Origin: an uncultured Bacteroidales bacterium
Lineage (GTDB): Bacteria > Bacteroidota > Bacteroidia > Bacteroidales > UBA932
DNA length: 52,630 bases
Assembly: GCA_900319975.1 (NCBI GenBank)
Contig: ONQP01000019.1
Span: 1 to 52,630, forward strand
Direction: 5' to 3'
Positions 5,157-51,720 of the stretch are shown here, piece by piece. The notes below the pieces were generated by a model. It had not been told where the DNA came from, did not search any database, and was given only the letters and a program-made list of their open reading frames with translations. The first letter of the stretch is position 1. Every line of letters begins with the position of its first letter. The position numbers and the translations under genes were made by a program.

Positions 5157-5164
5157 TCCCTGCC

Positions 5165-6838: not shown

Positions 6839-8021
6839 GCGGCAGCCCGCGGCTTTTCAGCAAGGCGTTGTAGCGGTCGAGCACTTCCTCGACGCAATCC
6901 TCCCAGGACCGGACGATGGTCTTGGAGGCCTGCACGCCCACGCGGTGCACGCGCTCCGGATCGTGGATCAGTTCGCGCAGCAGCTGCGCCATCTTGTCCG
7001 GATCGTTCTCCACGAGGAAACCGTTCTCGCCGTCCTTAAGGATGGTGGAGGCCGTGGCGCCCTCGGCCATGATGGAAGGGGTGTGCAGGGCCGCCGCCTC
7101 GCGCACGACGAGCGGCGCGTTGTCGTAGAGCGACGGGAAGAGGAACAGGTCGGAAGCGGCGTAGTAGTCGGTCAGCTTCGCGCGGTCCGTGATGGAGCCG
7201 ACGAAGGTCACCTTGTTGTCCAGCCCCCGCTCGCTGACGAGCTGCTTCATCTCCTCGGCGGCATAGCCGACGCCGACGAAATACATCCGGAACGGGATGT
7301 CCGGGATGCGGGCCAGGGATTCGATGACCAGACGGGGATTCTTCTCCCAGATATGCTGCCCGACGAAGAGCATCACGAACTCTTCCGGCTTGATGCCCAG
7401 GCGCTGACGCGCCTCCACGAAATACTTCTCGGGATAGTCCGCCACGAGGTCGGAGCCGTTGTCCATCACCTCCACGTGGCCCTTGAAGCCATATTCGCGG
7501 ATCACGTCCACGACGGACTCCTGCGGCACCCAGACCAGGTCTGCGCGTTCGTAGAAATCGATGATGCTGTCGATCCAGATGTCCACGGCGAGCTTCGGCA
7601 GGATGCGGGAGAAGTCGTCCCGGTACTTGGAGTGGAACGTGGCCACCATCGGGATCTTCTGCAGGCGCGAGATGCGGTAGGCCGCCGCGCCGGAAGTGAA
7701 GGGGCTGTGCGCATGCACGATCCGGAACCGGGTCGTGGCCACCTTGGCCAGGTAGGTCGGGTCGATCTCCGCGATGCCGGTCACATAGGGATGGCGCTTG
7801 GGCACGGGGATCGAGAAATAGTCGAAGACTTTGTAGTCGTGTACGCTATAGTCCGCACCCGGGACATTGGGCGTGACCACGCACACGCCGCCTACCTTCT
7901 TCTGCATCCAGTAGGCGTAGTTCTCCATGCACACGGACACGCCGTCCATCACGGGCGGGAAAACATCACAGAACAGGCCGACATTGGCCTGTTCCGGAGA
8001 AAAAATGGTTGGTCTGTCCAT
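6819..8021 (-). CDS. GT4-family glycosyltransferase
   Basis: The 400-residue GT-B enzyme has the N-terminal GT4 signature (VGLFCDVFPPVMDGVSVCME), a His-containing RIVHAHSPFTSG acceptor-side loop, and a C-terminal nucleotide-sugar half (VMLFVGQHIWEKNPRLVIE and LFLFPSLYDNAPLVVREAAA). GT4 enzymes transfer sugars from nucleotide or phospho-donors with retention, often to lipids such as diacylglycerol or to phosphatidylinositol. The N-terminal half resembles lipid mannosyl- or glucosyl-transferases. It starts 2 bases after the EF-hand membrane protein gene and is probably co-transcribed with it. The acceptor is unknown. Confidence 0.88.
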   Translation of the reverse strand: MDRPTIFSPEQANVGLFCDVFPPVMDGVSVCMENYAYWMQKKVGGVCVVTPNVPGADYSVHDYKVFDYFSIPVPKRHPYVTGIAEIDPTYLAKVATTRFRIVHAHSPFTSGAAAYRISRLQKIPMVATFHSKYRDDFSRILPKLAVDIWIDSIIDFYERADLVWVPQESVVDVIREYGFKGHVEVMDNGSDLVADYPEKYFVEARQRLGIKPEEFVMLFVGQHIWEKNPRLVIESLARIPDIPFRMYFVGVGYAAEEMKQLVSERGLDNKVTFVGSITDRAKLTDYYAASDLFLFPSLYDNAPLVVREAAALHTPSIMAEGATASTILKDGENGFLVENDPDKMAQLLRELIHDPERVHRVGVQASKTIVRSWEDCVEEVLDRYNALLKSRGLPPIERPA

Positions 8022-8023
8022 AA

Positions 8024-18418: not shown

Positions 18419-21400
18419 ATGAGAGCGATCCGTTTGATAACACTAGCACTTCTGACCGTAATGAACCTACCCCACAACGCTTTCGCCCAGGACAAGGACG
18501 GCCACATCCTGACCCGCCTTTGGGCCGACTACGAAAAGGCCGAGCAAGCCGACCGTCCCCAGGACCAGGTCCGCATCCTCGAGCAGATCAAGAAAGAAGC
18601 CACGGACAAACACCTGCCGTGGGATTTCTACGAAGCCTGCACCGAGTATGTCGATGTCCGGGAGGATATCAACTGGAAAGACCGGGCCGAAGTCCGCAGG
18701 CAGGCGACGGAAGAGATCGACCGCTTCGGCGAGCCGATTGTCTACTTCTTTTACCGGCTGGACGAGGATTATGCCTATGAAGAAGAGTACACGCCCCAGG
18801 AAGAGCGCCTGCCGGGACTCCTGGCATACGTGCAGGAGCACAAGGAGCAGATGGAGCGCGCGTGCAACCGGCAATTCCTTGAGCGGATCTTCTGGCTGCA
18901 CAACCTGCCTTATCACAAGGCACTGCTGCCCCTCATCAAGAACGACTACGAATACGCGCTGTGGAGCCTTCTGAGCGTAAGCCCGGACGTCGACTGGGCC
19001 CGGCAGATTGCCGGCCTCTTCCCGCCACAGGGCTACCCCCTCGACGCCTTCATCGCGTTCACCCTCCTCCAGGAGGATGACGCCACCGCCGACGCGGCGT
19101 ATGAAAAATATGTCGCCGACCATGCCGGACAGGCGGTCGCCCTGATGGCCCGCGACTGGCTGCTGGACCGCCGCTTCATCGAACTCAACCGCAAGGATGC
19201 ATCTCAGGAGGAATACCTCCGCCTCTCAGAAGACTGCAAGGCGCTGCAGGCCGACCGCAAGAAGTTCTCCGGCAACGAAAAGCTCATCGCCGATTGCTGC
19301 ACCCGGGCAGGCAGGATCTTCAGCCAGCTGAACGAGAAGGAAATCTTTGCAAGAATCAAAAAGGGCACCGTCACCATCCGGTTGCGCAACCTCCCCCAGG
19401 TCCGCGTCACCCTCGCCAGGGAAGGCGACGACAAGAAGAAACCGGTCTTCGAGCGGACGATCGCCAACACGCGCCACAGTTTCTATGTCCATGACACGCT
19501 CGTCTTCGACCTGCCGGTCATCGACGACGGCGCATATGTCCTCTACTGCGAAGAGGACGTGGCCACCTGCCGGACGGAATACACCAAGAACACGCTCTCC
19601 ATCGCCCTCAAGCGCGACCATGACGGCTTCGGCGCCTATGTAGCCGACTACATCACCGGCAAGCCCGTGTCCCGCTGCGACATCCTGCTCCTGCGCGACG
19701 GCAAGCAGGTCGACGAGATCAAGGACCTGCCGATCGACGGATTCACCTACCTGCCGGAGCGTTTCGCCACCCAGCTGGAGAAGGACAAGCGGCATCACTA
19801 CACCGTCCAGGCCACCCTGCAGGAAAACGGCCGGAAGCGTTCTTCGAGAGAGGAAAGCATCTATTCCGTCGAGCAGGAGCCGCTCAGCACCGACAACCCC
19901 GCCCGGCACCACGCCACGATCCTGACCGACCGCAGCGCGTTCACGCCCGGCGAGACCGTCCAGTTCAAGGTCCTGCTCTATGAAGGAACCTTCGCATTCG
20001 CGACGCGCCCGGAAGGCATCCGGCTGCACGCCACGCTCACCGACCCGTCCGGCAAGCTGGTCGGCGAGACGGACCTCGTCACGGGCGAATTCGGCTCCGC
20101 CGCCGGTTCCTTCGTGCTCAAGAAGGCCGAGCGCGGCGGCATGTACACCATCGCCGTCCAGGAGTCCGGAGACCATATCGCCAGCACCCGCGTCCGGGTC
20201 GACGAATTCGTCCTGCCGACCTTCGACCTCACCTGGGAGCCGGACCCGCGCTTCTATTTCCCGCAGGACACCGTCACGGTCCGGGGCAACATCAAGAGCT
20301 ATTCCGGGCACAACCTCGGCACGGCCAAAGCCACGTTCGAGGCCAATGAATACGGGGTGTCGCTGGCCAGCGGCCCGCTGGAGATTTCCGACTCAGGCGA
20401 CTTCGAGGCCCGTTTCGTCATACCCAAAAACGACGACCGCTCCTATTATGGCAACATTTCCTTCCGCGTCACCGTCGTCGACGGCACGGGCGAGACGCTG
20501 TCGTTCACGAAGACGGTTCCCATCAAAAGATATCTGTCTCTCTCCATCGATATCCGCAACAGGGCCAAGGGACGCGTCCACATGGTCTCCGAGAGCGGCA
20601 ACGTCCTCGTTGGAGAAAACGTCCTCCGGGTCTGTTTCCAATCCGGCAGCTCGGGACTGGGTCATCCGACCCTGAAGATCTCCTACAAAGTCATGCGAGG
20701 CGTATCGACGGTCCTTTCCGGCGAGGCGCCTGTCGACCAGCCCGTCGACCTGTCCCTGGCCGGCCTCCCTTCAGGCCTGTATACCGTAGAAGCCATCGCC
20801 ACGGCCAGGAGTGACGGCGGCAAAGAATACACGGAGACGGTTAGGCGGTCGTTCCTCAAGTGTTCCGACACCGACAAGGTGCTGGATGCGGATGTCAGCT
20901 GCTTCTTCAAGGAGCTGCCGGACGACGGCAAGGGCATCGCGCTGCAGATCGGCACCACCACCGGCCCCGCCTGGGTGGTGGTGGAACTCTACGGCAACGG
21001 CGACCGCCTGCTAGAGAAGCGCATGGTCCGGCTCGCCGGCATCCGCGGCCAGGCCGGCTCGCTGGAGACGGTCCGCTTCGAGCGCAAGCCCGGCTATCCC
21101 GAAGCGTTGACGCTCGAAGTCTTCTGGTTCCGCGACGCGAAGAGCTTCGCTTATACCGTTTCCTCCTACAAGGCCCCCGCGGCCTTCCAGCTCCCGCTCA
21201 GCTTCAGCCGCTTCCTGGACACGACGCTGCCGCACACGGACTACAGCTTCACGATCCGCACCGGCGCCGGCACGGAAGTCGCCGCCACCGTCTTCGACAA
21301 GAGCACGGAGACCATCCAGCCCAATGTCTGGAGCACCGTCTCGCCCTTGACGCGGAACCTTCCCCGGACCATCTATTTCTTATGCCCGGGAGATGAACGC

Positions 21401-40063: not shown

Positions 40064-40118
40064 CCCTCCCCTCCATCCTCAAATAAGGCCATTTTTGAGG
40101 ACATACCCCAATTAATAC

Positions 40119-40147
40119 GCCTCCCGTCCTCACGGGAGGCTGTTTTT
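40119..40147 (+). terminator. Intrinsic terminator after parC
   Basis: GCCTCCCGT-CCTC-ACGGGAGGC followed by TGTTTTT: a 9-bp perfect stem. An extra weaker CCTCAAA/TTTGAGG stem (40077-40100) precedes it. The rest of 40064-40246 holds no gene that I can support. Confidence 0.85.
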
Positions 40148-40246
40148 GAGGATAGGTAGTAATCGCTCCTGAAGCTTCTTAAAAAATTGTGTTGGAGCGA
40201 GGACAGTCATCCAGGCCATTCCCTGTAAATGACGGAGATTTGAACA

Positions 40247-40375
40247 TCATGATTTTGAAGAATCACGCGTATTCTTGACGAGGCCTTTCTTGGAGAGCCA
40301 ACGAACCACAACGGGAGTAAGGACTCCAGCCATAATCGCTGCGAAGACAATGACGAGAATTTGTTTCCAGTCCAT
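40247..40375 (-). CDS. 42-residue single-pass membrane peptide
   Basis: The short frame starts MDWKQILVIVFAAIMAGV, gives one hydrophobic helix of about 20 residues, then a Pro and a basic cytoplasmic-type tail (VVVRWLSKKGLVKNTRDSSKS). A full TAnnTTTG box (40400-40407) lies 25 bases upstream, supporting expression. It is similar in style to small TM peptides or type I toxin-like peptides, but I do not recognise a family, and no antisense RNA is evident. Confidence 0.55.
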   Translation of the reverse strand: MDWKQILVIVFAAIMAGVLTPVVVRWLSKKGLVKNTRDSSKS

Positions 40376-40399
40376 ATAATATTGATTATTATTTCATCG

Positions 40400-40407
40400 C
40401 AAAAGTA
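40400..40407 (-). promoter_or_regulatory. -7 box TACTTTTG for the 42-residue peptide
   Basis: TACTTTTG on the minus strand is a full TAnnTTTG match. No TTG at the expected -33 distance; it lies immediately beyond the terminator of the upstream operon. Confidence 0.55.
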
Positions 40408-40451
40408 AAAAAACAAAATGCGTGACGCCGTCTTGACAAAATGGCCGTCAC
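40408..40451 (-). terminator. Probable terminator of the YcaO/ABC operon
   Basis: On the minus strand GTGACG (40446-40451) pairs with CGTCAC (40422-40427), extended by two more pairs with a bulge, and is followed by a T-rich stretch (ATTTTGTTTTTTT). It lies 18 bases after the stop of the barrel receptor gene. Confidence 0.6.
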
Positions 40452-40468
40452 CAAGGGAAAAGGATTCC

Positions 40469-43111
40469 TTACAAATAATACTTGACTCTCAGAAGCAAGT
40501 TCCCTGGAATCGTATACAACGAACGGAAGCTCCGTATATTGTCCTCCATCACGATCTCATTCCAGGTGTTGTCGTATAGATGCGTCAGGTTATTTCCCTC
40601 CAGCTCAAACTGGAGTTTCTGGTTCTTTAACGTATAACTGCAGCGGGCCCCTACGTTGAGCAGTTTCTGGTCCATCTTGTCCGTAACATTGTACGTATAC
40701 GTTAGGGAAGAGGCTATCCGAAACCTTCCGTTGGTCCAGGATAATTGCAGGAAGGGATCGATCCACCATTGCGACGTCTCGAAATAGTTCCGGAAAACGC
40801 TGTAGTGATACCCCATCCTCGCTTTCGCATTCAGGCCGCGCTTGAAATACGTTTCAACCGACACCTGGACGGAAGGAGACATCGAGGCGCAATCCACCGG
40901 GTTACCCTGGAACAGGCATTGGTAGTTCAACTGGTTGTACTCGACGGTAGACTCGCAGCCCAGGGGGGCGAACGCGAAGCGGCGGGAATATTCCAGGTCG
41001 GCGAACAGCGAGGTCTGATGCCCGCCTCTGCGCGGAACCGCCTCCGTCACGAACCCGGTCGTGCGATAATCGTAAGAGACCACATCGTCGGAGACGCTGT
41101 AGAAACAGCTTGCCTTCACCTGCGTCCCCCTGAACTGGTCGACGAGGACGTAGATAGCCTGCAGACGTTGCCGGCGTTCGAATCCGGCGACATCCAGGTC
41201 CGTCCAGTAATATTTGTCATAGGAGCCGATACGCACACCCGCCAGATAATCATCCAGGGAATACGGAGTATAGGTCCGGGTATAACTCAGGGTCAGTTTG
41301 CCGAACGAGACGGCGTCCACGGTAATCCCGACATGCGGATCGAACCGGACGGCAGACTCCGACAGGCGCCTGTCCTTATTGTTGACCGACAATTGCAGGA
41401 AACGCAAGGCGCCACCGACCTGGAACTGGAAGACCCCCTTGTTCTTGTGAAGTCTCAGGGTCAGCTGTTGCTGCCGGTAATCCCTCTCGACCGACTGGTC
41501 GTGGAACGTTCTTTCGCCATCCTCCAGCAGCAGGATCCCTTCCCTTGACTTCTGGAAATCAGCCTTGAGGCTTGTACGCAGGTAATACTTCGGGGCCAGC
41601 GTCAGGAGGTAGCTGGCTTCGGCGGCCAGCTGGTGCCGGCTTTCCGGATTCTCCTGACGGAGGTTCAGCATCCCGACCGGGAAATGCGGCATGAACGGGA
41701 AGTGGACCGTATCCGCCACCATGACCAGCGTCGTCGGCGAGGACGAGTATTGCTGGGTGACATTCAGGGACAGGATATCATCCCGGATTTTCCTGATGAA
41801 GGTCAGGGACTGATTGGCCGTCAGGCCCTTCTTCTTCCAGACCGGGGAGTAGGTATGTCCGGACTGCGCGATTCCCGTTCCGTGCAGCTTGTCGTTGTAG
41901 AACACGTCGCCGCGGTAATGCAGATTGGTTTTCTGCGAAGGAGAGTACAGGACATCCAGCATCCCGTAGAAGGAACTGACCCGGTTCGTATCGCGGACGT
42001 CCTTCAAGTTCGCCGCCAGGCCGTCCAGGAAAGAGTACTCTTCCTGGACCTGGGAGAAAGTCCTGTTCAGGTTGACCCAGGCGGATCCCTCCAGCTTCAG
42101 TTTCGAATTCGGCTGCGAATAGAAGTTGAGCGCAGCCAGGCCGTTGTCGTTCCGGTAGATGTTGCTGTCCGTCGTCAGGAAATCAAGCAGGTTGTCGTCC
42201 ACTTCCAGATTGTCGTTCATGCTGGAAATCACGGACGAGATGCCACCTTTCATACTGAAATAGTCCGAAAGGGAAAGGAGCGGGACGCCCGTGTTGTTGG
42301 CCGTCGCGGACACCGACCACATCGTCTTCTCCCGCAGGAGGAGGAGATTGTTGTTGGTCTCGAACTTGCTGGCGATGCCGCCCGCGAGATTCAGATGCCC
42401 CGAAAGCCGGCCGATGAACGTGTCCTTCACCTTGATGTTGATAGCCTTTGCCTCATGCGTCTGGAACCCGTTGAGGATATCGAAATCTGAATAATTGTTG
42501 ATGACCTCGACTTTATCCGCCAGGTCGGCCGAGAGATTGTTCGTGGCGATCTGCACGTTATCCTTGAACAGATTGTTGCCGTTCAGCAGGATCGTCTGCA
42601 CCTGCTCTCCCTGCGCCTGTACGCGCCCCGTCTTGTCGACGCTGATTCCCGGGAGTTTGTCCAGCAGGTCTCCCAGCGTTTCCTCGCCGCCATCCATGAA
42701 GGCCCCCGGATTGTACCGGAGCGTATCCCCGATGATCTGGACCGGCATGAATTTCTCCTCGACGACGGCCCCTTCCAGGAATAGCGCCGATGTTTTCAAG
42801 GGGAAATCGATGACCAGCTCGCTTTCCGGGAACAAGTATGCATTCTCCCGCCGCGTATCATAACCCAGGCACGAAACCGTCAAGGAATACGCGCCGGGGG
42901 CCAGCGCAGGGAATTCATACCTTCCGGCGCCGTCTGTCACAGACACCTGATAACGGGCCGTATCTTTCTGCGGAGCGGCGATCACGGGGATTCCCGACAG
43001 GACCGCTCCCGTATCATCACGTACCCGCCCGCGGATGGCACCGCTCTGGGCGAAAGCCGGGACGAAGGAAGAGATGACCAGAAAGATGGATATGAGCGCA
43101 TTCCGCTTCAT
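40469..43111 (-). CDS. Large outer-membrane barrel/TonB-receptor-like protein of the peptide cluster
   Basis: The 880-residue protein has a signal peptide (MKRNALISIFLVISSF...AFAQ). Next is a carboxypeptidase-regulatory-like domain (AIRGRVRDDTGAVLSGIPVI; about residues 25-110) and a plug-like region (LGDLLDKLPGISVDKTGRVQ, TILLNGNNLFKDNVQ; about 130-215). The rest is a barrel rich in Tyr/Phe strands and ends LLLRVKYYL. This fits the outer-membrane beta-barrel receptors found next to GLPGLI genes. It lies 2 bases after the GLPGLI gene. Role inferred: uptake or export of the cluster's product across the outer membrane, or sensing of it. Confidence 0.85.
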   Translation of the reverse strand: MKRNALISIFLVISSFVPAFAQSGAIRGRVRDDTGAVLSGIPVIAAPQKDTARYQVSVTDGAGRYEFPALAPGAYSLTVSCLGYDTRRENAYLFPESELVIDFPLKTSALFLEGAVVEEKFMPVQIIGDTLRYNPGAFMDGGEETLGDLLDKLPGISVDKTGRVQAQGEQVQTILLNGNNLFKDNVQIATNNLSADLADKVEVINNYSDFDILNGFQTHEAKAINIKVKDTFIGRLSGHLNLAGGIASKFETNNNLLLLREKTMWSVSATANNTGVPLLSLSDYFSMKGGISSVISSMNDNLEVDDNLLDFLTTDSNIYRNDNGLAALNFYSQPNSKLKLEGSAWVNLNRTFSQVQEEYSFLDGLAANLKDVRDTNRVSSFYGMLDVLYSPSQKTNLHYRGDVFYNDKLHGTGIAQSGHTYSPVWKKKGLTANQSLTFIRKIRDDILSLNVTQQYSSSPTTLVMVADTVHFPFMPHFPVGMLNLRQENPESRHQLAAEASYLLTLAPKYYLRTSLKADFQKSREGILLLEDGERTFHDQSVERDYRQQQLTLRLHKNKGVFQFQVGGALRFLQLSVNNKDRRLSESAVRFDPHVGITVDAVSFGKLTLSYTRTYTPYSLDDYLAGVRIGSYDKYYWTDLDVAGFERRQRLQAIYVLVDQFRGTQVKASCFYSVSDDVVSYDYRTTGFVTEAVPRRGGHQTSLFADLEYSRRFAFAPLGCESTVEYNQLNYQCLFQGNPVDCASMSPSVQVSVETYFKRGLNAKARMGYHYSVFRNYFETSQWWIDPFLQLSWTNGRFRIASSLTYTYNVTDKMDQKLLNVGARCSYTLKNQKLQFELEGNNLTHLYDNTWNEIVMEDNIRSFRSLYTIPGNLLLRVKYYL

Positions 43112-43113
43112 CT

Positions 43114-43866
43114 TTACATGCCCATGCTGAACACCGGTCCGGATACGTTCACCATGGCCATCTTTCTCTTGGCCATCTTGATGAACTCCTCCTTGGATAT
43201 TTGTTTCCCCTTGGAGGGCGGCACGATCGGCGTGTTTCCGGCTTCGCCGACACTGTTCGCTATGATATGGCGTTCTTTGCTCTTCAGCTCAAGCACGAGC
43301 CCGGGGAGACCGGTATAAACAGGGCCGTCGGATACGGGTATATTCCTCGTGAACCAGACTTCCGTGGAATCCGTCGTCGAGATGGCCTTGACGCAGGAGT
43401 AACCGGCGATCATCTTCGTCTCGTCGTCCAGGATCTGCCACTGATCCGCCTCCAGGGCGCTCTCGACCAGGTACCTCTTCCCCATCATTTCCTTCTGCTG
43501 GATCTCTTTATGGGCATTGTGGTCCCTATAGGTGATGTCTTCCGGAAGCCGGGAGCTGATGTCCACGGTCTGCCCCATGACCGTCACCTCAAGTTTATCG
43601 ACCTTTTGGCTCTTATATAGACTCTTCCCTTTGTTGTAAGTCAGGACATAGGGCACCTTGACCCCCTGCATGGCCGACTGGATCTGGGCCATGACTCCGC
43701 GACCCATCTCGCCCATCCCCATCTGTTCCTGGGCGGAGCGCATATTGTTGGCAACGTTGGGAACCATCTCGTAGTGGACTTCGATTCCCTGCGACATCAT
43801 TGTTATCGATTGCATGACAAGAAAAATTATTAGACAGATTTTCAATAGAAGGTTTTTGTTATTCAT
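43114..43866 (-). CDS. GLPGLI family exported protein
   Basis: The 250-residue product starts MNNKNLLLKICLIIFLVMQS with a signal peptide ending near MMSQG. It has the family-naming motif GLPGLVLEL near residue 186 and the upstream GYSCVKA and EVWFTRNIPVSDGP segments. GLPGLI proteins (TIGR01200) are secreted Bacteroidota proteins of unknown function, often near peptide-modification genes. ATG 43866 is chosen since longer frames run through the permease gene. It is 11 bases after the permease stop. Confidence 0.88.
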   Translation of the reverse strand: MNNKNLLLKICLIIFLVMQSITMMSQGIEVHYEMVPNVANNMRSAQEQMGMGEMGRGVMAQIQSAMQGVKVPYVLTYNKGKSLYKSQKVDKLEVTVMGQTVDISSRLPEDITYRDHNAHKEIQQKEMMGKRYLVESALEADQWQILDDETKMIAGYSCVKAISTTDSTEVWFTRNIPVSDGPVYTGLPGLVLELKSKERHIIANSVGEAGNTPIVPPSKGKQISKEEFIKMAKRKMAMVNVSGPVFSMGM

Positions 43867-43877
43867 GGCTTTAAATA

Positions 43878-44627
43878 TTAATGGATTCCGAGTTTTCCGT
43901 GTTTTTTCGCGTTCTTTTCTGCTATCTTGAACACCAGGATGCCGAGAATCATATATGCCGCGCTGTTGGCGGCGATCGTGAGCGCCTCGCCCAGCTCTAT
44001 CCCGAAAGACGGATCCTTGATGATGGCGACGGACAGTTTGTTCGCCAGGCAGAAAGGAAGTGCCGTACTCAACGTTTCGTTCAGGGAGGCGAAGGACATC
44101 CCGATGAACAGGAGCGTACTGAGGATGGAGACGAGCGTTCCCGCCTGCTTGAAACGCAGGATCAAGGCGCCTGCCATCAGGGCCAACCCCCAGATGGCCG
44201 GGATTCCGAGCAGGATGACCGGCGCGGCGTTTAGGAACGGAAGCAGGGAAATCTTCGAAGAGACGGACACGATGCCCAGGATGATCGTGAGCGGGATCAT
44301 GTTCAGGCAGAAAGATGACATCGCCCGGCACAGCAAGACTTTAATGTAACTTGACGCGTTCACATACAGCTGCTCAAGGATACCCGTCACGCAGTCGCTC
44401 GATATTCCTTCCGTGATGGAGTTGAAATTATACATCATCACCAGCCACATGAAATAGGGAGCGATCATCGTCAGCTTTGAGCCGCCGGTCATCTGCATGG
44501 CCATGGCAAAGCGCTGCGACGATGTGATGGCGATGCAGATTACGGACATCAGCACGATACTGGAGATTGTATTCACCTTGTATCGCCACAGGTATATGAG
44601 TTCTTTTCTAAAGATTTGTGCTATCAT
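43878..44627 (-). CDS. ABC-2-type transporter permease
   Basis: The 249-residue protein has about six hydrophobic segments (KVNTISSIVLMSVICIAI; MIAPYFMWLVMMYN; MIPLTIILGIVSVSS; APVILLGIPAIWGLALM). This fits an ABC-2 exporter permease with cytoplasmic N-terminus. Its start overlaps the ATPase stop (ATGA), so the two form one exporter. Substrate inferred: the small peptide encoded upstream. Confidence 0.85.
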   Translation of the reverse strand: MIAQIFRKELIYLWRYKVNTISSIVLMSVICIAITSSQRFAMAMQMTGGSKLTMIAPYFMWLVMMYNFNSITEGISSDCVTGILEQLYVNASSYIKVLLCRAMSSFCLNMIPLTIILGIVSVSSKISLLPFLNAAPVILLGIPAIWGLALMAGALILRFKQAGTLVSILSTLLFIGMSFASLNETLSTALPFCLANKLSVAIIKDPSFGIELGEALTIAANSAAYMILGILVFKIAEKNAKKHGKLGIH

Positions 44628-45532
44628 AACGAAAATTCATCAACGCCAAGATAAATGGATTCCAGGTCACGGTTCAACTGCAGCACCTCCAGGACAGAAA
44701 CGCCAGCCGATTCCAGCTTTCCAAGACAGTCCGGCAGACGGGTGTCCGCCGTATCTATGATCAATTCCGTTTCGCGGTCATTGACAGCCGTCGCCCGCAG
44801 GACGGCGACGCCGCCCCAGCCCGCATCGGAAGAAGAGACGCGTACTTTGTATAAAGTATCTTTCAGGTCATTGATGTCAAGCAACGACAAGGCGCCCGCT
44901 TTCAGGTAGAGGTGTTTCTCGGTGATGTTCCGGATAAACCCCATGTCATGGGAACTTACAAGGACAATCCTGTTGCGCAGGTACTCGGAATTGGCCAGGA
45001 AGGTTTCCAGCTGCTTCCGCGACTCCACGTCCAGACCCAGGGTGGGTTCATCCAGGAAAAGCAGGCGCGGATTGGACAGGAGGGCGCAGGCGATCGCCAC
45101 TTTCTGCTGCATTCCCCGGGAAAGGTTCGCGACGATCGTATCCTTCTTCTCATAGAGGGCGAGGTCGGACAGCATTTTCTCGCAGTCCGCCTTGATCGTG
45201 CCGAAGCGGATTCCGCGGATTCCGGTGAAGAACCGGATATTCTCCAGGGGGGTCAGTCTCCAGTAGACGTTCCTGTTTCCTTCCAGGACGGCGCTATAGT
45301 CCTTACAGCCGAGCGGCCGGAGGCCGTGCTCATCTTCCAACCGGATGGAGCCCTCATACGTAATGAGGTTCGTGCACGCCTTTATCAGCGTGGTCTTGCC
45401 GGAGCCGTTCTTTCCCAAAAGCCCGTATATGTGGTTGTCTTCCATCTTGACCGACACGTTGCGGAGCGCCTGCACGCTTTTTCCCCTGTCGGAATAGACT
45501 TTTGACAGATTGTCGATTATAAGGGAACTCAT
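44624..45532 (-). CDS. ABC transporter ATP-binding protein
   Basis: The 302-residue ATPase has Walker A GLLGKNGSGKTTL, signature LSRGMQQKVA, Walker B LLFLDEPTLGLD and H-loop VLVSSHD, plus a C-terminal extension of about 90 residues. It resembles the NatA/drug-export subgroup. It overlaps both its neighbours by 4 bases. Confidence 0.93.
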   Translation of the reverse strand: MSSLIIDNLSKVYSDRGKSVQALRNVSVKMEDNHIYGLLGKNGSGKTTLIKACTNLITYEGSIRLEDEHGLRPLGCKDYSAVLEGNRNVYWRLTPLENIRFFTGIRGIRFGTIKADCEKMLSDLALYEKKDTIVANLSRGMQQKVAIACALLSNPRLLFLDEPTLGLDVESRKQLETFLANSEYLRNRIVLVSSHDMGFIRNITEKHLYLKAGALSLLDINDLKDTLYKVRVSSSDAGWGGVAVLRATAVNDRETELIIDTADTRLPDCLGKLESAGVSVLEVLQLNRDLESIYLGVDEFSL

Positions 45533-46659
45533 GATTCTTTATTGTTTTGTATCCTGCCCATCCGTTCTTCCCGGTAAGGATGATCGGCGAAGATGACATA
45601 ATGGAGACGGTGGGTCTGATAGATGTCCTGATCCAGGTCTGCCAGGAAACTCAGGTATTTCTCCACACCGACTTTCGAGACCGCATAGCGGTCGGCGCTG
45701 AACTCGAAATTCCTTTTCATATTGTTGAACAGGATGGTGGAGAGCAGCATCAGCGGGGCTATAAAGACAACGAAGCTCAATACCGCAGATGGAAAGTCCA
45801 GACCAGGCAGACCGTGTGCGTAAAAATAGAATGCCGTCAAAAGAAGGATGTAATACCCCACCCGGAGAAATGAAGCAATGCGCATGTGGCCTTTCCTGTG
45901 GTGACCGGACTCATGGGCGACGATACATTGAAGCGTTTCATCGCTGCCCTGCAGGGTCATCCCCATCCCGATGATGACCATCGGATGGATGATTCCGAGC
46001 AGGAACGAGTTCTGGTAAAATGAGCGCATAGACACAAGATAGACCGGGAGCCCATTGCTTCCACTTCCCGGAGACGGCACGATCGCATCGTCCTGACTGC
46101 CGACATACCCCAGCCGGAAACCTTTCCTGGCGTTCCGCTTCTGGAATGACACGGCGACGATGGAGACCACCCCTGCCACCAGGAAAGCTACGATGCAGAA
46201 AAGCAAGGCGCTGCTGTCAAACAGGAACATACCGGCCGCAAGGAAGGCGGAAAGCAGGACGAAGATGGCCAATGTCTTGACCATCAGGAAAGCCCCGGGC
46301 ATAACGTCCGGGACACAGTCTCCCATCTTGCTGTTGAGGATCGAGTTCAGCCCCTTCTTGATGAAAGAGCACAACGCGATGCCTCCGGCGATGAAAGCAA
46401 TCCGGCAAAAGGATGCGCCATAAACCCGCACGCCATGGATGTCGTATGAATTGCCTCCGAACGGGAAAAAGGCGACCAGGGACAGGATAATGCCAAACAA
46501 CAGTATTTTAATCCCGTAAAGGATAATGAATATCTTCCTTATTTCCCTCCTGCCAAATTGTTTGGCGATATGCACACAATTCGCGATCTCCTCATACATC
46601 ATGAGAAGTGCCAACACGAGCACGATGCAGCGATAGGCGGTCAGCAGGGTTTCGGTCAC
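45529..46659 (-). CDS. M48-type membrane metalloprotease
   Basis: The 376-residue protein has many hydrophobic helices, a zinc-binding HESGHH motif near residue 250 and a downstream EFSADRYAV that fits the third ligand Glu of M48 proteases. It starts at GTG 46659, 24 bases after the YcaO stop. In this context it could cleave the leader of the small peptide at the membrane, though that is inference; it might instead be a general envelope protease. Its stop overlaps the ABC ATPase start. Confidence 0.85.
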   Translation of the reverse strand: MTETLLTAYRCIVLVLALLMMYEEIANCVHIAKQFGRREIRKIFIILYGIKILLFGIILSLVAFFPFGGNSYDIHGVRVYGASFCRIAFIAGGIALCSFIKKGLNSILNSKMGDCVPDVMPGAFLMVKTLAIFVLLSAFLAAGMFLFDSSALLFCIVAFLVAGVVSIVAVSFQKRNARKGFRLGYVGSQDDAIVPSPGSGSNGLPVYLVSMRSFYQNSFLLGIIHPMVIIGMGMTLQGSDETLQCIVAHESGHHRKGHMRIASFLRVGYYILLLTAFYFYAHGLPGLDFPSAVLSFVVFIAPLMLLSTILFNNMKRNFEFSADRYAVSKVGVEKYLSFLADLDQDIYQTHRLHYVIFADHPYREERMGRIQNNKES

Positions 46660-46683
46660 GGGATTAAAATGCTGTTCGTTAAA

Positions 46684-48528
46684 CTAGGACGAGAAATCAC
46701 TGAAGGAGCCGAACTGGTCGAGTTTGGTCGCCATCATGGTCTTGTTGAGCGTGATGGTCTTCTCGAGCAGGTTCTTGGTCATACAGTCTTTATTCAGCGG
46801 GCAGTTCTCGCAGTCCGGGCAGGACGGGAGATTGATCTGCTTGAAGACGGACTTGATGTCTTTGATACCGCTCTCCAGTTCCTCGATGACCCGGGCGTCG
46901 AGGCGCTCCTTGGGATCCTTCCCGTTCGCCTTGCACTCCAGATAGACATCCAGGTTCTTGTAGTACGGCACTTCCGTCGTGTTGGTCGCTCGCGTGAATT
47001 CATCCAGATACCTTCTGGCCTTCTGGTATTCCTTGACGACGCAGGCGAATCCAAGGAGGAAGAAGTTGACGGGCACCGAGTGCCAGGGCGTCTTGGACTT
47101 GAATTCGAGCTTCAGCAGTTCTTCCATCAGAAGTTTGGGGCTCCGGACCTCGCCCTCGTCGATGTCGAGCAGGTGGATCAGGGAGCGGATCTTGTCATCA
47201 TCCCAGGTGTTCGTCGGGAAGAAGATGTCCTCGATATGGTCGGTCTCGATCTGCGCCTCAAGCAGGCCGGATTCCAGCTTGCCGGGGATATTCTTCCGCC
47301 CGAGTCCCGAGACATAGGGAACATAGATGTAGACTGTCGGGAAACCGAGGAACGAGGAATTGCGCATGTAAACCTCGCGGCCGCTGTTCAGGAAATATCG
47401 CACGAGCCGGATGGCATCCTCCCGATAGGATTCGGCGGGAGTGAAGACTTCGGGAGAGAATTCATACGAAGGCTCGTCGCCGAAAATCGAGATCGGGAAA
47501 TACCCGCTGCCGTCCTTCGTGAACTTGGAGAGCTGCAGCGCACGCTCCTTGACGCACTGCGGATCCGAACTGAGGAAGAAAGGACGCTCCTCGGTAGCGA
47601 GGTCGAGCATCCGCTTCTGGAAGCCGGCTTCGTCTTCATAACCCTGGTAGATTTCCGTCAGGGCACGACCCAGCGCCACCGGCAGGGAGGTATCGGAACC
47701 GATGTTCAGTTTGTACTTCTTATCGTCCCGGGAACGGATGATCACACCGATGGAAGGGAGGCCTTCTCCGGCGGAGAAGTCTTTCACGGTCACCTTGAAG
47801 AGGCCGGAACGCTCGATGTCACAGATCATACCGTACTCTTTCGGGCAGTGCTCCTTCAGATAAGAGACCGGGATCGTGGGCGGCGTCAGGCGTTTGTTGA
47901 AGATCTGCGCGGAGGCATATCGCTCGCAAAGCTCGCAAAGGGCCTGGAACGAGGCTTCATAAATCGAGTTGCCGGCAGCCATTCCGTTCGAACCCGTATG
48001 CATCAGCAGCAGATTGTAAGGGATATACTGAACCCGCTTGTTCTTTACATCATAGAACGGGATCGAGAGGATTCCATCATAGCCATTGTGATTGGCCCTG
48101 TCATAATATCTATCCACCTCAGCTTCAGTCGGGATACCGCGAAGGATGTCCTTCAGGATGGCCTCAGGCAGCTGCCTGAACTCATCTTTCTTCAGCACCT
48201 TCTCATCCGGGAAATAGACGATCCCGGAACGGTCCTTGATCTGATTCAGGAAGAAACGGTTGAACGAGTTGCCTCCTGCGAGGAAACCGTTCTGCAGTCT
48301 CTCCGCGTATTCGGCGTATGCGCTTGCCAAGGCAAACTGCATGGTGCGGCCTTTTCCGTTCGTACCGAAGGCTCCGCTGTCATCGTCAGCCTGGACTCTC
48401 ACGGAAAACGTGTTTTGATACGGTGCTCCCCAAAAGCTTTCATAAACGAAATAATCCAGATTGGACAGGATGGATCTGATCTTATGAACAGTGTTGATTG
48501 GAGAATCTTCTTTATATACCCTTGCCAT
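46684..48528 (-). CDS. YcaO-domain protein, E. coli YcaO-type
   Basis: The 614-residue protein matches the E. coli YcaO layout. It has TNGKGRTMQFALASAYAEYA with E73 and E76, then SNGMAAGNSIYEASFQALCE with E191, Q195, E199, and ER at 202-203, which are the ATP/Mg-binding positions of YcaO. YcaO enzymes use ATP to activate peptide amides (azoline, thioamide or amidine formation). There is no PxPxP C-terminus typical of azoline-forming RiPP YcaOs. Instead the tail is TPR-like helical and carries a Cys cluster C-x2-C-x2-C-x5-C (CPDCENCPLNKDC). Immediately upstream is a stem-loop and then the Ala-rich peptide gene, so peptide modification is the natural inference. Confidence 0.9.
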   Translation of the reverse strand: MARVYKEDSPINTVHKIRSILSNLDYFVYESFWGAPYQNTFSVRVQADDDSGAFGTNGKGRTMQFALASAYAEYAERLQNGFLAGGNSFNRFFLNQIKDRSGIVYFPDEKVLKKDEFRQLPEAILKDILRGIPTEAEVDRYYDRANHNGYDGILSIPFYDVKNKRVQYIPYNLLLMHTGSNGMAAGNSIYEASFQALCELCERYASAQIFNKRLTPPTIPVSYLKEHCPKEYGMICDIERSGLFKVTVKDFSAGEGLPSIGVIIRSRDDKKYKLNIGSDTSLPVALGRALTEIYQGYEDEAGFQKRMLDLATEERPFFLSSDPQCVKERALQLSKFTKDGSGYFPISIFGDEPSYEFSPEVFTPAESYREDAIRLVRYFLNSGREVYMRNSSFLGFPTVYIYVPYVSGLGRKNIPGKLESGLLEAQIETDHIEDIFFPTNTWDDDKIRSLIHLLDIDEGEVRSPKLLMEELLKLEFKSKTPWHSVPVNFFLLGFACVVKEYQKARRYLDEFTRATNTTEVPYYKNLDVYLECKANGKDPKERLDARVIEELESGIKDIKSVFKQINLPSCPDCENCPLNKDCMTKNLLEKTITLNKTMMATKLDQFGSFSDFSS

Positions 48529-48561
48529 TATATTGATTGTTTAATGATTTTCCGATAATAA

Positions 48562-48601
48562 GAGGAGAGCGTCTCTTGTTGATCCTGGGGACGCTCTCCT
48601 C
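48562..48601 (-). terminator. Stem-loop between peptide gene and ycaO
   Basis: GAGGAGAGCGTC/GACGCTCTCCTC forms a 12-bp stem (48562-48573 with 48590-48601; inner positions fully paired apart from one outer mismatch region) around a 16-base loop, followed on the minus strand by TTATTA. It could be an attenuator or processing site that raises peptide mRNA over the downstream enzymes. The T-tract is weak, so read-through is expected. Confidence 0.65.
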
Positions 48602-48617
48602 CCCCAAAGAATTTGGA

Positions 48618-48785
48618 TTAAATCAAAGCACGGTTCTGAGTTGCCACAGCAATGGCAGCTTCAAGAGCGTACGTTGCGGCAGCAAGCGCTGCTTCCGCGG
48701 CCTTAACGGCTTTCTGTCCGCCGTCATTGGGCTGTTCATCTTGTGCTAAGTACAGCATGGTTTTAGAGTTAAAAGGGTTAAACAT
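48618..48785 (-). CDS. Ala-rich 55-residue candidate precursor peptide
   Basis: The frame starts MFNPFNSKTMLYLAQDEQPN, then DGG, then a core-like part beginning QKAVKAAEAALAAATYALEA and ending TQNRALI. About 14 of the last 32 residues are Ala. No Cys or Ser is found after the DGG; two Thr and one Tyr are present. A DGG ahead of the Ala-rich part resembles a double-glycine leader end. A second ATG at 48758 would give 46 residues. It sits just upstream of ycaO, separated by a stem-loop, and 43 bases after a small exported protein. Role as precursor is inferred from size, position and composition. Confidence 0.6.
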   Translation of the reverse strand: MFNPFNSKTMLYLAQDEQPNDGGQKAVKAAEAALAAATYALEAAIAVATQNRALI

Positions 48786-48828
48786 TAATTTATATTGCGT
48801 CAAATAACGCCAAACTAAAAGGGATTGA

Positions 48829-49173
48829 TCAGTCCTCGTCAATTTGCTCGAACATCACATAACCGCCGAAAGAGCTTTCGTCCGGGAGGGGAATCAATGC
48901 ATAAGTATGACACGTATATTCCTGCACCTCCGGAAGATCGTCGCTTACAATGGTCACCTTGACGGATGTTCCCGGATCGGCTATGACCAGAACCAAACCC
49001 AGGTCGAGACGGATCTCCGCAACAGAGGAAAGGTAGATCTCCGGCCGGTGGACACCGACACCAGGTTTCGGGATGTTGACGACAATCGGGCTGTGCGTTC
49101 TTTCGGCCGTGCATACGGCAAAAGGAGCCGTTAACGCGATCACGCAAAATAAAAGGAATAGTGTTTTCTTCAT
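48829..49173 (-). CDS. Small exported DUF3244-like protein
   Basis: The 114-residue product has a signal peptide (MKKTLFLLFCVIALTAP...AVCTA). A beta-sandwich-like body follows (SVAEIRLDLGLVLVIADPGT, SVKVTIVSDD, YALIPLPDESSFGGYV), which resembles DUF3244, a small immunoglobulin-like secreted family of Bacteroidota. It is the first gene after the island's -7 box at 49198-49205, and the peptide gene follows after 43 bases. An immunity or surface role is possible but unsupported. Confidence 0.65.
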   Translation of the reverse strand: MKKTLFLLFCVIALTAPFAVCTAERTHSPIVVNIPKPGVGVHRPEIYLSSVAEIRLDLGLVLVIADPGTSVKVTIVSDDLPEVQEYTCHTYALIPLPDESSFGGYVMFEQIDED

Positions 49174-49197
49174 CTTGTGGTGAATTAATTTTCATCA

Positions 49198-49205
49198 CAA
49201 AGATA
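49198..49205 (-). promoter_or_regulatory. -7 box TATCTTTG upstream of the peptide operon
   Basis: TATCTTTG on the minus strand is a full TAnnTTTG match, 25 bases ahead of the small exported protein's ATG. No -33 TTG is visible, which fits an activator-dependent promoter. Confidence 0.65.
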
Positions 49206-49238
49206 GAGGGAGAATCCCGAAAGATCGTATTACGGACC

Positions 49239-49258
49239 GTTACAAATTAAATTGTAAC
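49239..49258. promoter_or_regulatory. Inverted repeat, candidate operator
   Basis: GTTACAA-ATTAAA-TTGTAAC: 7-bp perfect arms with a 6-base spacer, about 34-53 bases upstream of the -7 box on the minus strand. The neighbouring gene encodes an HTH regulator, so this is a likely binding site. Confidence 0.5.
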
Positions 49259-49312
49259 AGTTTGATTTTCAAGAACATCGAAAAAAGTTGCGTAACAAGA
49301 ATGCAACAGGGA

Positions 49313-50980
49313 TCAGGCAAGGTGGGAAATGAACTCCTCTCCGGCTCCTTCCATGGACTGGAAGAGCTTTTTATACCTGCTTTTACGCGTACGGACCGAC
49401 TCCTCGGTCATATCCATGATGAAGCTGATACTCTTGGGCGTGAAGCCGGCAAAGAACAGAGTCAGCAGCTTGAAATCCATGTCCTTCATCTTGTGTTCGG
49501 AGGCACCGGAGAAAGTCGCACGCAGGCGGCTCATTATGTTCTGGTTGTTGATATCCAGCGTTTTCTCAAGCGAAGGAATGAAATATTCATCGTTGCGCAG
49601 CGACCGGAGTGTCGAACGGAACTCGGAGATAACGTCTTCTTTCAAAGATTTCCCCTGCAACCTTTCCCGCAGGTACAAGGCCTCGTCCGTCCAGGAGAAA
49701 TACGAATCCGTCAGTTTCTGCATGAGGCATATCTTGTCCTGGACCAGCGAAGACAGGATGGCGCCGGCGCCTTTCTGCTTCTCCTGGAGCAGCTGCATGT
49801 CCTGGCTGAGGCCTTCCACCTTCTCCATCTCCTCCAGGATCTGGACCTTCCGCTTCTTCAGGAGGCTGAATGCGGCCAGGATAATGATCAGCATGAACGA
49901 GACCAACAGGAAGGCGATCAGCACGACCGTCCACTTCTGCTCCATTTCCGAAGAATAGCGCTCTTCATAATAGGTTGACTGCAGATGCGTGATCGAACGG
50001 GCCAGCAAAGAAGACACGATCTTGTTCTGGGTGCTCGTTGCGTCTTCCAAAAGATGATACGCCCCCCGCACGTCTCCACGATGCAGGAGGATAGCGCTCT
50101 CACAGTCATAGAAAGCAGCGCTGTCAATCGGAGAATTGAGTTGTTGCCGAATCAGGTTCAGACAGCTGTCCGCATCAGCACTTCGCCCCTTTATTTCGTT
50201 TATAAAAGCCAAATTACTCAAAGAGGCCAAGTCAAGGGAATAGCCATCCTCACGGGCCAGTTCGTAATAGCTTTCGGCCTCCGAATAGTTCCGGTTCCAA
50301 TAGAATAGATCTGCCTTCAAAACATACAGACAGTAGCGCAGGCCGGGATTCATGGTGGCACGGAATGTCAGCAGGGAATCGACGATCCGGGTCGAGCGGT
50401 CGATCTCGCCCAGGTGGAAGAGCTGGCGCGCCATATCCATCCGCGAGAAATCGGCAGATAACGGCTCGCCGGCCGTTTCGAATGCATCGACAGCCTTTTC
50501 CGCATAGTTGCAGGCCGCCTGTGCATCATAATTCTCCGCGTACAGCGCGCATAGATGCTGCCGCGAGAGACCCAGATAATGATATTGCTTTGTCCGCTCG
50601 GCCAGGACTTCGGCCTCGCTGAACAGCAGCGACGGTTCGATGGTCTCCCCGGCATTCTGCAGGACAACGCCCCAATAGTACGCGGAGCGCAACCGGTCCT
50701 GGGCCGTTCCATGCCGGCGATAATAGCTGTAAGCGCTGCTGATAAGCGAATCGCTCCGGACATCCAGATAATTCTTGACCTGTGACGCCGTCAGGACGAG
50801 GGCATAGCGAGCCCGCAAACCGCGATGGAAGGGAGTCTCCTCAATCCGGTTCATAATAAGAAGAGCGCTGTCCGGATGGGATTCAAGCAAATGTTCCGCC
50901 TGTACGATTGCCTTCCGGGACGCCGAGGAGCAGGCGACCAGGCATAGTACACCGATAGAAAAAAACAGCAGTCTTTTCAT
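49313..50980 (-). CDS. Membrane-spanning TPR lipoprotein-like regulator with C-terminal HTH
   Basis: The 555-residue protein begins with a lipobox-like leader (MKRLLFFSIGVLCLVACSS; Cys17). TPR-type helical repeats follow through about residue 330 and then a membrane helix (WTVVLIAFLLVSFMLIIILA). A coiled-coil stretch (ILEEMEKVEGLSQDMQLLQE) leads to a C-terminal LuxR-like helix-turn-helix (LLTLFFAGFTPKSISFIMDM then ESVRTRKSRY). This is a one-protein sensor/regulator: sensing outside, DNA binding inside. It lies directly upstream of the peptide operon on the same strand, with an inverted repeat in the gap. Confidence 0.8.
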   Translation of the reverse strand: MKRLLFFSIGVLCLVACSSASRKAIVQAEHLLESHPDSALLIMNRIEETPFHRGLRARYALVLTASQVKNYLDVRSDSLISSAYSYYRRHGTAQDRLRSAYYWGVVLQNAGETIEPSLLFSEAEVLAERTKQYHYLGLSRQHLCALYAENYDAQAACNYAEKAVDAFETAGEPLSADFSRMDMARQLFHLGEIDRSTRIVDSLLTFRATMNPGLRYCLYVLKADLFYWNRNYSEAESYYELAREDGYSLDLASLSNLAFINEIKGRSADADSCLNLIRQQLNSPIDSAAFYDCESAILLHRGDVRGAYHLLEDATSTQNKIVSSLLARSITHLQSTYYEERYSSEMEQKWTVVLIAFLLVSFMLIIILAAFSLLKKRKVQILEEMEKVEGLSQDMQLLQEKQKGAGAILSSLVQDKICLMQKLTDSYFSWTDEALYLRERLQGKSLKEDVISEFRSTLRSLRNDEYFIPSLEKTLDINNQNIMSRLRATFSGASEHKMKDMDFKLLTLFFAGFTPKSISFIMDMTEESVRTRKSRYKKLFQSMEGAGEEFISHLA

Positions 50981-51002
50981 ATCTTAAGGGGGAGGCGTCA
51001 CA

Positions 51003-51010
51003 CAAATATA
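51003..51010 (-). promoter_or_regulatory. -7 box TATATTTG for the regulator gene
   Basis: TATATTTG on the minus strand is a full TAnnTTTG match, 23 bases upstream of the regulator ATG. No -33 element at 19 bases. Confidence 0.6.
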
Positions 51011-51011
51011 A

Positions 51012-51061
51012 TTAATTCTGAGAAAAAAACAGCCCCCTAAGGAGCATATTTTCAGAATTAA
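51012..51061. repeat. Wide 10-bp inverted repeat flanking a terminator
   Basis: TTAATTCTGA (51012-51021) and TCAGAATTAA (51052-51061) are perfect inverted copies 30 bases apart, overlapping the aroE stop on one side and touching the regulator's -7 box on the other. It encloses the aroE terminator and could extend it or act as an operator for the regulator gene. Confidence 0.5.
51023..51045 (-). terminator. Terminator after aroE
   Basis: On the minus strand GCTCC-TTAG-GGGGC, a 5-bp stem with one G-U pair, is followed by TGTTTTTTT. It lies 13 bases after the aroE stop. Confidence 0.65.
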
Positions 51062-51720
51062 CCGCGAAAAACGGCCTCCATCGCGGAGGCGTCCGGCTCC
51101 TCGCCGGTCATCAGGGCGTAGCCCGTGACCGCCTGCATCAGCAGCCAGGAGGAGCCGGGGATGTAGCCCGGACGGCCTGCGAGGCAGGGATCCTTGTAGT
51201 TGGCTTCCAGCAGATGGGCGCAGTCGAGCCGGTCGATGCCCTCGACGGCGCGCGGCAGGGTGTAGATGATGACGTCGGCCTGCACGCCGCCCGCCACCTC
51301 GGCGTGGCGATAGAGCCGCGTGTCGAGGCCGAGGTCCTCGGCGGCGGCGAGGGCGGCCTTGCCCGCCCCGCCGTAGCCGACCACGGCCGCAGAGCGGCAA
51401 CCGAGCGGCGCCAGCAGGGCCTTCACGCCCCGGTAATCGGAATTGTAGGCCTTCGTCCCCTCGGGCGTCTTGACCACGAGGTTGGTCGCGCCGGCGCGCT
51501 CGCACTCGGGGCTGCGCCAGTCCACCCGCGCAAAGGCGTCGCCCTTGAAGGGCGCGGTGACGTTGATCGCCCGGTAACCGGCCAGGAAGCGCCGCCAGGC
51601 TTCGTCGAAATCGGGCGTCTCGATCAGGTCATAGACATATCTGCCGCCATAGGCGGCGGTGAACAGCGCAGGGCTGAGCGAATGGGCGATCGGATGCCCG
51701 ATGAGTCCGAACTTATCCAT
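51058..51720 (-). CDS. aroE: Shikimate dehydrogenase
   Basis: The 220-residue enzyme reduces 3-dehydroshikimate with NADPH in aromatic amino-acid synthesis. Substrate motif GHPIAHSLSP, catalytic Lys in NVTAPFKG, Asp in YNSDYRG and the nucleotide loop GYGGAGKAA are all present. It is shorter than the usual 245-280 residues: the domain after the nucleotide loop is compact, but no internal break is seen. It overlaps the end of the methyltransferase gene by 8 bases. Confidence 0.9.
   Translation of the reverse strand: MDKFGLIGHPIAHSLSPALFTAAYGGRYVYDLIETPDFDEAWRRFLAGYRAINVTAPFKGDAFARVDWRSPECERAGATNLVVKTPEGTKAYNSDYRGVKALLAPLGCRSAAVVGYGGAGKAALAAAEDLGLDTRLYRHAEVAGGVQADVIIYTLPRAVEGIDRLDCAHLLEANYKDPCLAGRPGYIPGSSWLLMQAVTGYALMTGEEPDASAMEAVFRG

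Follow-up and report, generated by a model that had tools for sequence, protein, structure and literature searches.

YcaO-dependent members of the ribosomally synthesized and post-translationally modified peptides (RiPPs) are already known. In the ItfA/ItfB-type radical SAM-YcaO RiPPs of Bacteroidales, ItfB is reported to make a backbone amidine at the last amide of ItfA (PMC10352776, PMC11002830), the outer-membrane/TonB-type protein ItfF is encoded beside the YcaO (PMC11002830), and outer-membrane protein genes are also present in the clusters BGC6-8 (PMC10352776). Escherichia coli YcaO is associated with thioamidation of uL16 and has an isoelectric point (pI) of 4.4 (PMC13063428). In the DAG-RiPPs, the MNIO enzyme DybH reads a conserved C-terminal motif and leaves the N-terminus free for signal peptides (PMC12636315, preprint), and in daptides the YcaO DapY acts at the peptide C-terminus (PMC12670281). 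YcaO proteins have also been noted in graspetide loci, in a different arrangement (PMC8939145). In this study, we analysed a stretch of 52,630 nucleotides from an uncultured Bacteroidales bacterium (the window; contig ONQP01000019.1 of assembly GCA_900319975.1), which carries an island with a ycaO gene, a short peptide gene and putative export genes. Comparison with related loci shows that the window YcaO belongs to a clade which spans several phyla and is genetically paired with short, C-terminally tagged peptides.

Sixteen members of this clade are known, namely the window YcaO, those of the loci L040-L053 and that of genome G584, and three of them are unreadable upstream (L047 and L053 are located at the beginning of their contigs, and the ycaO of G584 is missing the N-terminal half). 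Each of the 13 readable loci has, on the same strand and upstream of ycaO, a short open reading frame (ORF) whose C-terminus reads R-[P/S/A/V]-[V/I/L/A]-[L/I/V/F], which ties a gene-encoded precursor to the putative modifying enzyme across species; 12 of 14 clade loci were scored by script, and L045 was added by hand (its ORF is cut by the contig end). Homologous loci devoid of a small peptide gene, on whose absence the first-pass annotation had staked its proposal, were not encountered, as 12 of 12 relatives with readable upstream DNA have one. The tag was found in 29 of 123 upstream ORFs (25-180 aa, within 2.2 kb; 28 if one overlapping frame in the window, a chance match, is discounted) and in 9 of 1986 ORFs from other parts of those loci. 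No tagged peptide was present in 63 other ycaO loci (L061, whose match starts at base 16 of its contig, was excluded), although six of these controls have less than 2.2 kb upstream. A further objection is that the motif was derived from the loci in which it was counted and was widened for L046 (RVII) and L051 (RPVF), and for this reason a motif-free test on 12 loci was added: the mean best between-locus score of C-terminal 5-mers was 12.8, against 9.08 for ORFs elsewhere in the loci (sd 0.42, with 10.68 as the highest value in 500 draws), and the closely related L044 and L048 make up one of the 66 pairs.

The N-terminal parts of the peptides differ widely, many starting with M-[K/D/E]-[Y/F], and ahead of the tag no position is conserved from locus to locus. 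Tandem tagged peptides, nine in L044 and eight in L048, differ in their middles and have ETGRPVL-type ends, while the window peptide ends in TQNRALI and the pair of L040 in FHENRSLI and FHFQNRSVI. It is thus the C-terminal R-x-aliphatic-aliphatic tag, and not the Ala-richness remarked on at first, that the peptides have in common. The start of the window peptide also has to be revised from the 55-residue reading: the inner ATG at 48758 is likelier, because a ATGTTTAA stretch 27-28 nt upstream of it is shared with both L040/L024 peptides, yet is out of frame in one of them. Searches of Pfam and NCBIfam with ten peptides each gave no match above cut-off, and two weak matches (E 0.049 and 0.017) were ignored. 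The precursors of L050 and L051 are long and Gln-rich and still carry the tag; in L051 (Desulforhopalus), a 1370-aa subtilase-VWA protein is encoded upstream of the peptide and ycaO (4323-8435).

Members of the clade are thinly spread. Among 299 family genomes, 11 gave a YcaO match at E 1e-3 and four (G000, G082, G170 and G007) at 44% identity or more, and a clade profile run on 398 family genomes matched nine at 1e-60, the same four with more than 500 bits. Four YcaO matches were obtained from 393 order genomes, including the C-terminal clade fragment of G584 (226 bits with the clade profile), and the window's own YcaO was the sole match at 1e-60 in 395 phylum genomes; the window's genome has a single copy. 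An earlier scan of a contig collection with one YcaO gave no relative, and one with four YcaOs yielded 368, the top 80 of which were retained and correspond to 78 loci: 14 (L040-L053) at 38-48% identity and 64 at 35% or less. L040, L042 and L053 are the same loci as G082/L024, G170/L026 and G007/L027, respectively, and were counted once, and all of L040-L053 appear by title to be metagenome bins except L051 (Desulforhopalus sp. IMCC35007). Further clade members may exist beyond those scanned, because the contig scan requires an exact short pattern. No YcaO relative was found in viral contigs, and plasmids gave 24 records with YcaO relatives; the 20 listed have identities of 27-32%, and none of them spans 80% of the query.

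A tree of 42 YcaOs, built from the 14 clade members of full length and 28 of the other 64 and not including ItfB itself, joins the clade in a single group (support 100/100), far from the E. coli-like YcaOs. Its sister is a group of six Bacteroidota YcaOs (support 100/99), and the window YcaO stands beside that group, not inside it; four of the six have double-glycine (GG)-leader-like ORFs directly upstream, a context like that described for ItfB. According to the record labels, the clade includes Bacteroidota, Spirochaetota, Acidobacteriota, Myxococcota, Thermodesulfobacteriota, Mcinerneyibacteriota and Bacillota, and one of the last two labels may be wrong, since the YcaOs concerned are very alike (branches 0.07-0.08). 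Further sister-type YcaOs occur in the Prevotellaceae bins L024 (4311-10626 and 7464-7661) and L028 (6506-18646), where they are accompanied by KGG-leader peptides, outer-membrane proteins and what by eye look like radical SAM proteins. In G082 such a system lies on the same contig as the clade-type cluster, so that several peptide systems stand side by side, and L024 also carries an 87-aa stump of another YcaO, comprising the N-terminal part only (18729-18992).

The AlphaFold model of the window YcaO (pLDDT 90.3) has E. coli YcaO (4q86) as its best Protein Data Bank (PDB) match, with template modelling (TM) scores of 0.76/0.80. The C-terminus carries a Cx2Cx2Cx5C motif and lacks a PxPxP end. 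S69, E73, E76, R77, E191, E199, E202, R203, R288, E292 and Q295 are invariant in 15 aligned rows; we take them to be ATP-site-type residues, which together with the YcaO domain place the protein in the YcaO superfamily. E202 aligns with E202 of E. coli YcaO, of which an E202A variant is in use (PMC13063428). The label of an E. coli-type YcaO therefore holds for the fold and the missing PxPxP end, but not for descent, as the tree puts the protein outside the E. coli (uL16) group and beside Bacteroidota YcaOs.

Among the described systems, the ItfA/ItfB type resembles the window locus in the C-terminal Fe-S/Cys-type region of the YcaO, the conserved precursor C-terminus, an outer-membrane/TonB protein in the cluster and, if the six sister YcaOs are of ItfB type, a sister position in the tree. 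Unlike it, the window has no radical SAM protein, double-glycine leader or C39-peptidase transporter, and the clade has a different C-terminal motif and spans several phyla. E. coli YcaO shares the fold, the ATP-site residues and the lack of a PxPxP end, but belongs to a separate clade with a mostly lower pI, whereas the window enzyme is encoded beside a peptide gene. The DAG-RiPPs are similar in that an enzyme reads a conserved C-terminal motif, as we propose here, and in that N-termini vary and some are lipoprotein signal peptides; they differ in having an MNIO enzyme in place of a YcaO, and five of our members have lgt or lspA directly behind the enzyme gene. The lipobox of DAG-RiPPs (PMC12636315) is not found in the window peptide, which has no Cys. 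Daptides would share a YcaO acting at the peptide C-terminus, but DapY requires a decarboxylated, aminated C-terminus and keeps PxPxP, and no such companion enzymes were seen in the nine island proteins scanned. Open PubMed Central papers, as far as covered, gave no description of a YcaO with such tagged peptides, of GLPGLI in a RiPP cluster, or of linked lgt/lspA, and the YcaO similarity networks of PMC13063428 and PMC12670281 with their supplements may hold the group; the clade, the tag and the lipid-gene link look new. As for the combination of YcaO, GLPGLI protein and receptor that the first-pass annotation did not recognise as described, an outer-membrane/TonB protein beside a RiPP YcaO is already on record (ItfF; BGC6-8).

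On the sequence evidence, we consider it probable that the island is a RiPP-like peptide maker whose YcaO reads the C-terminal tag and edits a backbone amide there, and that the window version is exported. The YcaO would bind the peptide by its tag, without an N-terminal leader-binding partner, and would phosphorylate the oxygen of a backbone amide within the tag or next to it, after which this oxygen would be replaced. The likeliest product would be a backbone amidine from ammonia, as reported for ItfB, and a thioamide would come second. In the window system the M48 protease may trim the N-terminal part of the peptide, the ABC ATPase and permease may move the product across the inner membrane, and GLPGLI together with the outer-membrane protein may pass or rebind it; for M48, GLPGLI and the outer-membrane protein, these roles are suggested by family and position only. 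A function in antagonism or signalling is a guess. The wider proposal is that of a new phylum-crossing RiPP class, in which a stand-alone YcaO modifies a backbone amide within the R-[P/S/A]-aliphatic-aliphatic tag at the C-terminus of peptides otherwise free in sequence, as a form of portable tagging, some members are YcaO-made lipoprotein-RiPP hybrids with their own Lgt/LspA, and the window member is a secreted form equipped with a protease, an ABC exporter, a GLPGLI protein and an outer-membrane protein of its own; for this proposal as a whole we see the balance as even. If it is true, it would provide a defined pair of enzyme and substrate, the latter marked by four C-terminal residues, in which chemistry and tag can be tested together, and a YcaO counterpart to the MNIO enzymes reading C-terminal motifs. 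It would also tie YcaO peptides to the lipoprotein pathway via the linked lgt/lspA genes and give a context to GLPGLI, to our knowledge a Bacteroidota family without known function.

Several observations weigh against the reading of the island as a RiPP-like peptide maker with a tag-editing YcaO. The Arg-Pro bond of many members would be an unusual amide for YcaO chemistry. The six sister YcaOs are taken to be ItfB-like from the leader peptides found near four of them and from published accounts; L057 and L058 have no GG-leader ORF in the 900 bp upstream, KGG peptides lying some kb upstream of the YcaO in L058. The full M48/GLPGLI/outer-membrane set occurs in one other genome only (G082), where the M48 protein is 21% identical to that of the window, and judging from the ORF lists L042, L043, L046, L050, L051 and L052 have no ABC exporter directly beside ycaO.

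Other readings of the same data were weighed. The tag could be a recognition follower that is later removed, the YcaO modifying upstream residues as with the bottromycin follower peptide; its far better conservation than the rest of the peptide and the protease in the operon would suit this, but with no upstream residue conserved across loci, and only 12 residues, tag included, after the lipobox-like Cys of the L049 and L052 peptides, we regard it as unlikely. The YcaO might instead be an ATP-dependent peptidase removing the tag, which would then be a cleavage signal, or a macrocyclase. MusD (7u58, titled YcaO-mediated ATP-dependent peptidase activity) is indeed among the fold matches, but at a TM score of 0.40 it is distant and far below E. 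coli YcaO, and the likely sister group is reported as amidine makers, which leaves this reading very improbable.

An action on a ribosomal protein (thioamidation of the uL16 type), with the peptide unrelated, is a still fainter prospect. It has in its favour the fold shared with E. coli YcaO and the best NCBIfam match, the E. coli equivalog, whose 192 bits are nevertheless far from the cut-off of 700. The clade is separate, its pI of 5.0-7.0 in 14 members (window 5.5) compares with 4.4-5.0 in eight E. coli-like rows, the ranges touching at 5.0 and a ninth row on that branch, L093, reaching 9.5, its members are sparse (4 of 299 family genomes), and a tagged peptide adjoins ycaO wherever the DNA is readable. 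A ycaO neighbourhood pointing to a ribosomal substrate, named in the first-pass annotation as grounds for doubt, is hence opposed by tree, pI and gene context alike. Least credible of all, with hardly any probability left to it, is an azol(in)e-type thiazole/oxazole-modified microcin (TOMM), which the pairing of a YcaO domain and a small peptide might bring to mind: the 46-aa window peptide has no Cys or Ser and two Thr only, the SagD model gives 45.6 bits against a cut-off of 219, there is no PxPxP end, and no E1-like or dehydrogenase partner was seen in the nine island proteins scanned. A TfuA-dependent thioamide was set aside, as none of these nine proteins matched TfuA; use of free sulfide by the window YcaO is conceivable. 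An Arg-adjacent thioamide by analogy with uL16 was set aside as weak, as the uL16 site is reported at Met82-Gly83, following Arg81 (PMC7550191).

The features placed at 40469-50980 by the first-pass annotation were all recovered, all on the minus strand (Table 1), and the tight packing from ycaO to the last gene was confirmed, with gaps of 24, -4, -4, 11 and 2 bp. In G082/L024, two tagged peptides are followed by YcaO (48% identity), M48 in the same place as in the window (Pfam 1.1e-22), ABC ATPase (45%), permease (46%), a protein of 315 aa that matches no Pfam family, another ABC ATPase, GLPGLI (38%) and an outer-membrane protein (31%). The locus L037 (3163-7329) keeps the ABC (46%, in the corresponding place), permease (46%), GLPGLI and outer-membrane (31%) genes, but ycaO is gone and a 42-residue M48 remnant is left, so that it is likely a deletion derivative; GLPGLI identities in L024/L040 and L037 are 37-39%. 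In L041 an ABC ATPase (45%) and permease (28%) directly precede the peptide, and in L044, L045 and L048 ycaO is followed by a fused ABC exporter (with a Pfam check for L044 alone). The window permease matched only itself in 393 order genomes at E 1e-8. The reading as an island for peptide modification and export in DNA of foreign composition is supported, whereas the M48/ABC/GLPGLI/outer-membrane set, present in the window and G082, is partial in L037, reduced to ABC and permease in L041 and not general.

Table 1. Features of the island in the window
Feature	Position	Strand	Details
Island without counterpart in closest sampled congener	40064-51078		homology with G1193 ends at 40063 and restarts at 51079
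Outer-membrane-type protein, plug-like segment, probable barrel	40469-43111	-	880 aa; carboxypeptidase-regulatory domain PF13620, 9.3e-16
GLPGLI protein, N-terminal signal-like segment	43114-43866	-	TIGR01200, 132.6 bits (cut-off 50)
ABC-2-like permease	43878-44627	-	weak CcmB match, below CcmB cut-off
ABC transporter ATPase	44624-45532	-	homologues at 45% (L024/L040, L041) and 46% (L037)
Membrane M48 metalloprotease, candidate peptide trimmer	45529-46659	-	Pfam M48, 6.8e-13
YcaO amide-activating enzyme (predicted)	46684-48528	-	614 aa; Pfam YcaO, 5.5e-45
Stem-loop between peptide and ycaO	48560-48603	-	by folding; z -4.3 for the intergenic stretch
Precursor peptide	48618-48758	-	46 aa, MLYLAQDEQPNDGGQKAVKAAEAALAAATYALEAAIAVATQNRALI; 55 aa (48618-48785) if ATG at 48785 is used
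Small exported protein	48829-49173	-	114 aa; signal segment by eye; island part
Tetratricopeptide repeat (TPR)/helix-turn-helix (HTH) membrane regulator	49313-50980	-	555 aa; island part

The gene after ycaO is lgt in L041, L042 and G584 and lspA in L049 and L052, and no lgt/lspA homologues were found within the sampled DNA of the 64 other loci (L054-L117). Four of these five genomes have at least one further copy, and no second lgt is seen in the L041 bin. For G584 and G1077, the ycaO-linked Lgt and the genome's other Lgt are not sisters; the linked Lgts form no group of their own, copies of G1082 and G1084 falling among them, and the LspAs of L049 and L052 group (0.98) with a third G1082 copy, apart from other copies. 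Lipoboxes and signal segments were judged by eye: LASC is present in the L049 and L052 peptides only, its Cys 12 residues before the end. Simple lipidation of the L041 and L042 peptides is disfavoured, because the Cys is in a poor context in the former and absent from the latter. A cluster of G1082 (L137, 6568-9822, on contig C22) comprises a split lgt, an ABC ATPase, a membrane protein and an lspA that shares 80% identity with the genome's ycaO-linked lspA; the contig has no clade ycaO, and the 0.5 kb preceding lspA contain no tagged peptide. In G584 (L039, 8532-10573), the ycaO without its N-terminal half adjoins a tyrosine-integrase-like gene (by eye) and is followed by a second lgt.

In each of the 13 loci folded, a stem-loop was predicted in the first 160 nt of the interval that separates the last tagged peptide from ycaO, with z from -1.9 to -6.8 (100 shuffles per locus); only peptide-ycaO intervals were folded, and stem-loops may be common generally. 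That of the window is a possible attenuator or partial terminator and would let the peptide be made in excess.

The closest sampled congener, G1193 (ParC identity 90%), has parC and aroE 99 bp apart. ParC was searched in 20 congeners beyond the window's genome and was present in 19; in the parC surroundings of seven others (6-16 kb each), aroE directly follows parC in none, and BLAST detected no island genes there. As the first-pass annotation had noticed, the island is more AT-rich than its flanks, its genes having a GC content of 0.52-0.56 against 0.615 for parC and 0.689 for aroE, and the GC content at third codon positions (GC3) is 0.59-0.76 in eight protein genes and 0.45 in the peptide gene, against 0.93 in parC and 0.88 in aroE. 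The island, regulator and exported protein included, was therefore either gained recently or lost locally in G1193, and GC3 favours a gain. No flanking repeat was recognised around it, and no integrase gene was noticed inside it, no profile search having been aimed at integrases.

Of the remaining island proteins, the regulator shows by eye a TPR-like part, one membrane segment and a C-terminal HTH-like part, with weak family matches (DUF6377; BT3442 family, 42.5 bits against a cut-off of 940), and the small exported protein has no Pfam or NCBIfam family. The 880-aa protein had been called a receptor, an identity that is not established, as the TonB plug match is weak (E 0.24); its AlphaFold model is of low confidence (pLDDT 33.9), and its profile matched a single PDB sequence, a tail fibre (E 0.022). 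Polyketide-type tailoring-like genes (by eye) lie near the Spirochaetales ycaO of L043 (3441-13311). Inside the window island, behind the outer-membrane gene, a 42-aa ORF, MDWKQILVIVFAAIMAGVLTPVVVRWLSKKGLVKNTRDSSKS, at 40247-40375 (minus strand) has one hydrophobic segment and a basic tail, and could encode an immunity or other small membrane protein.

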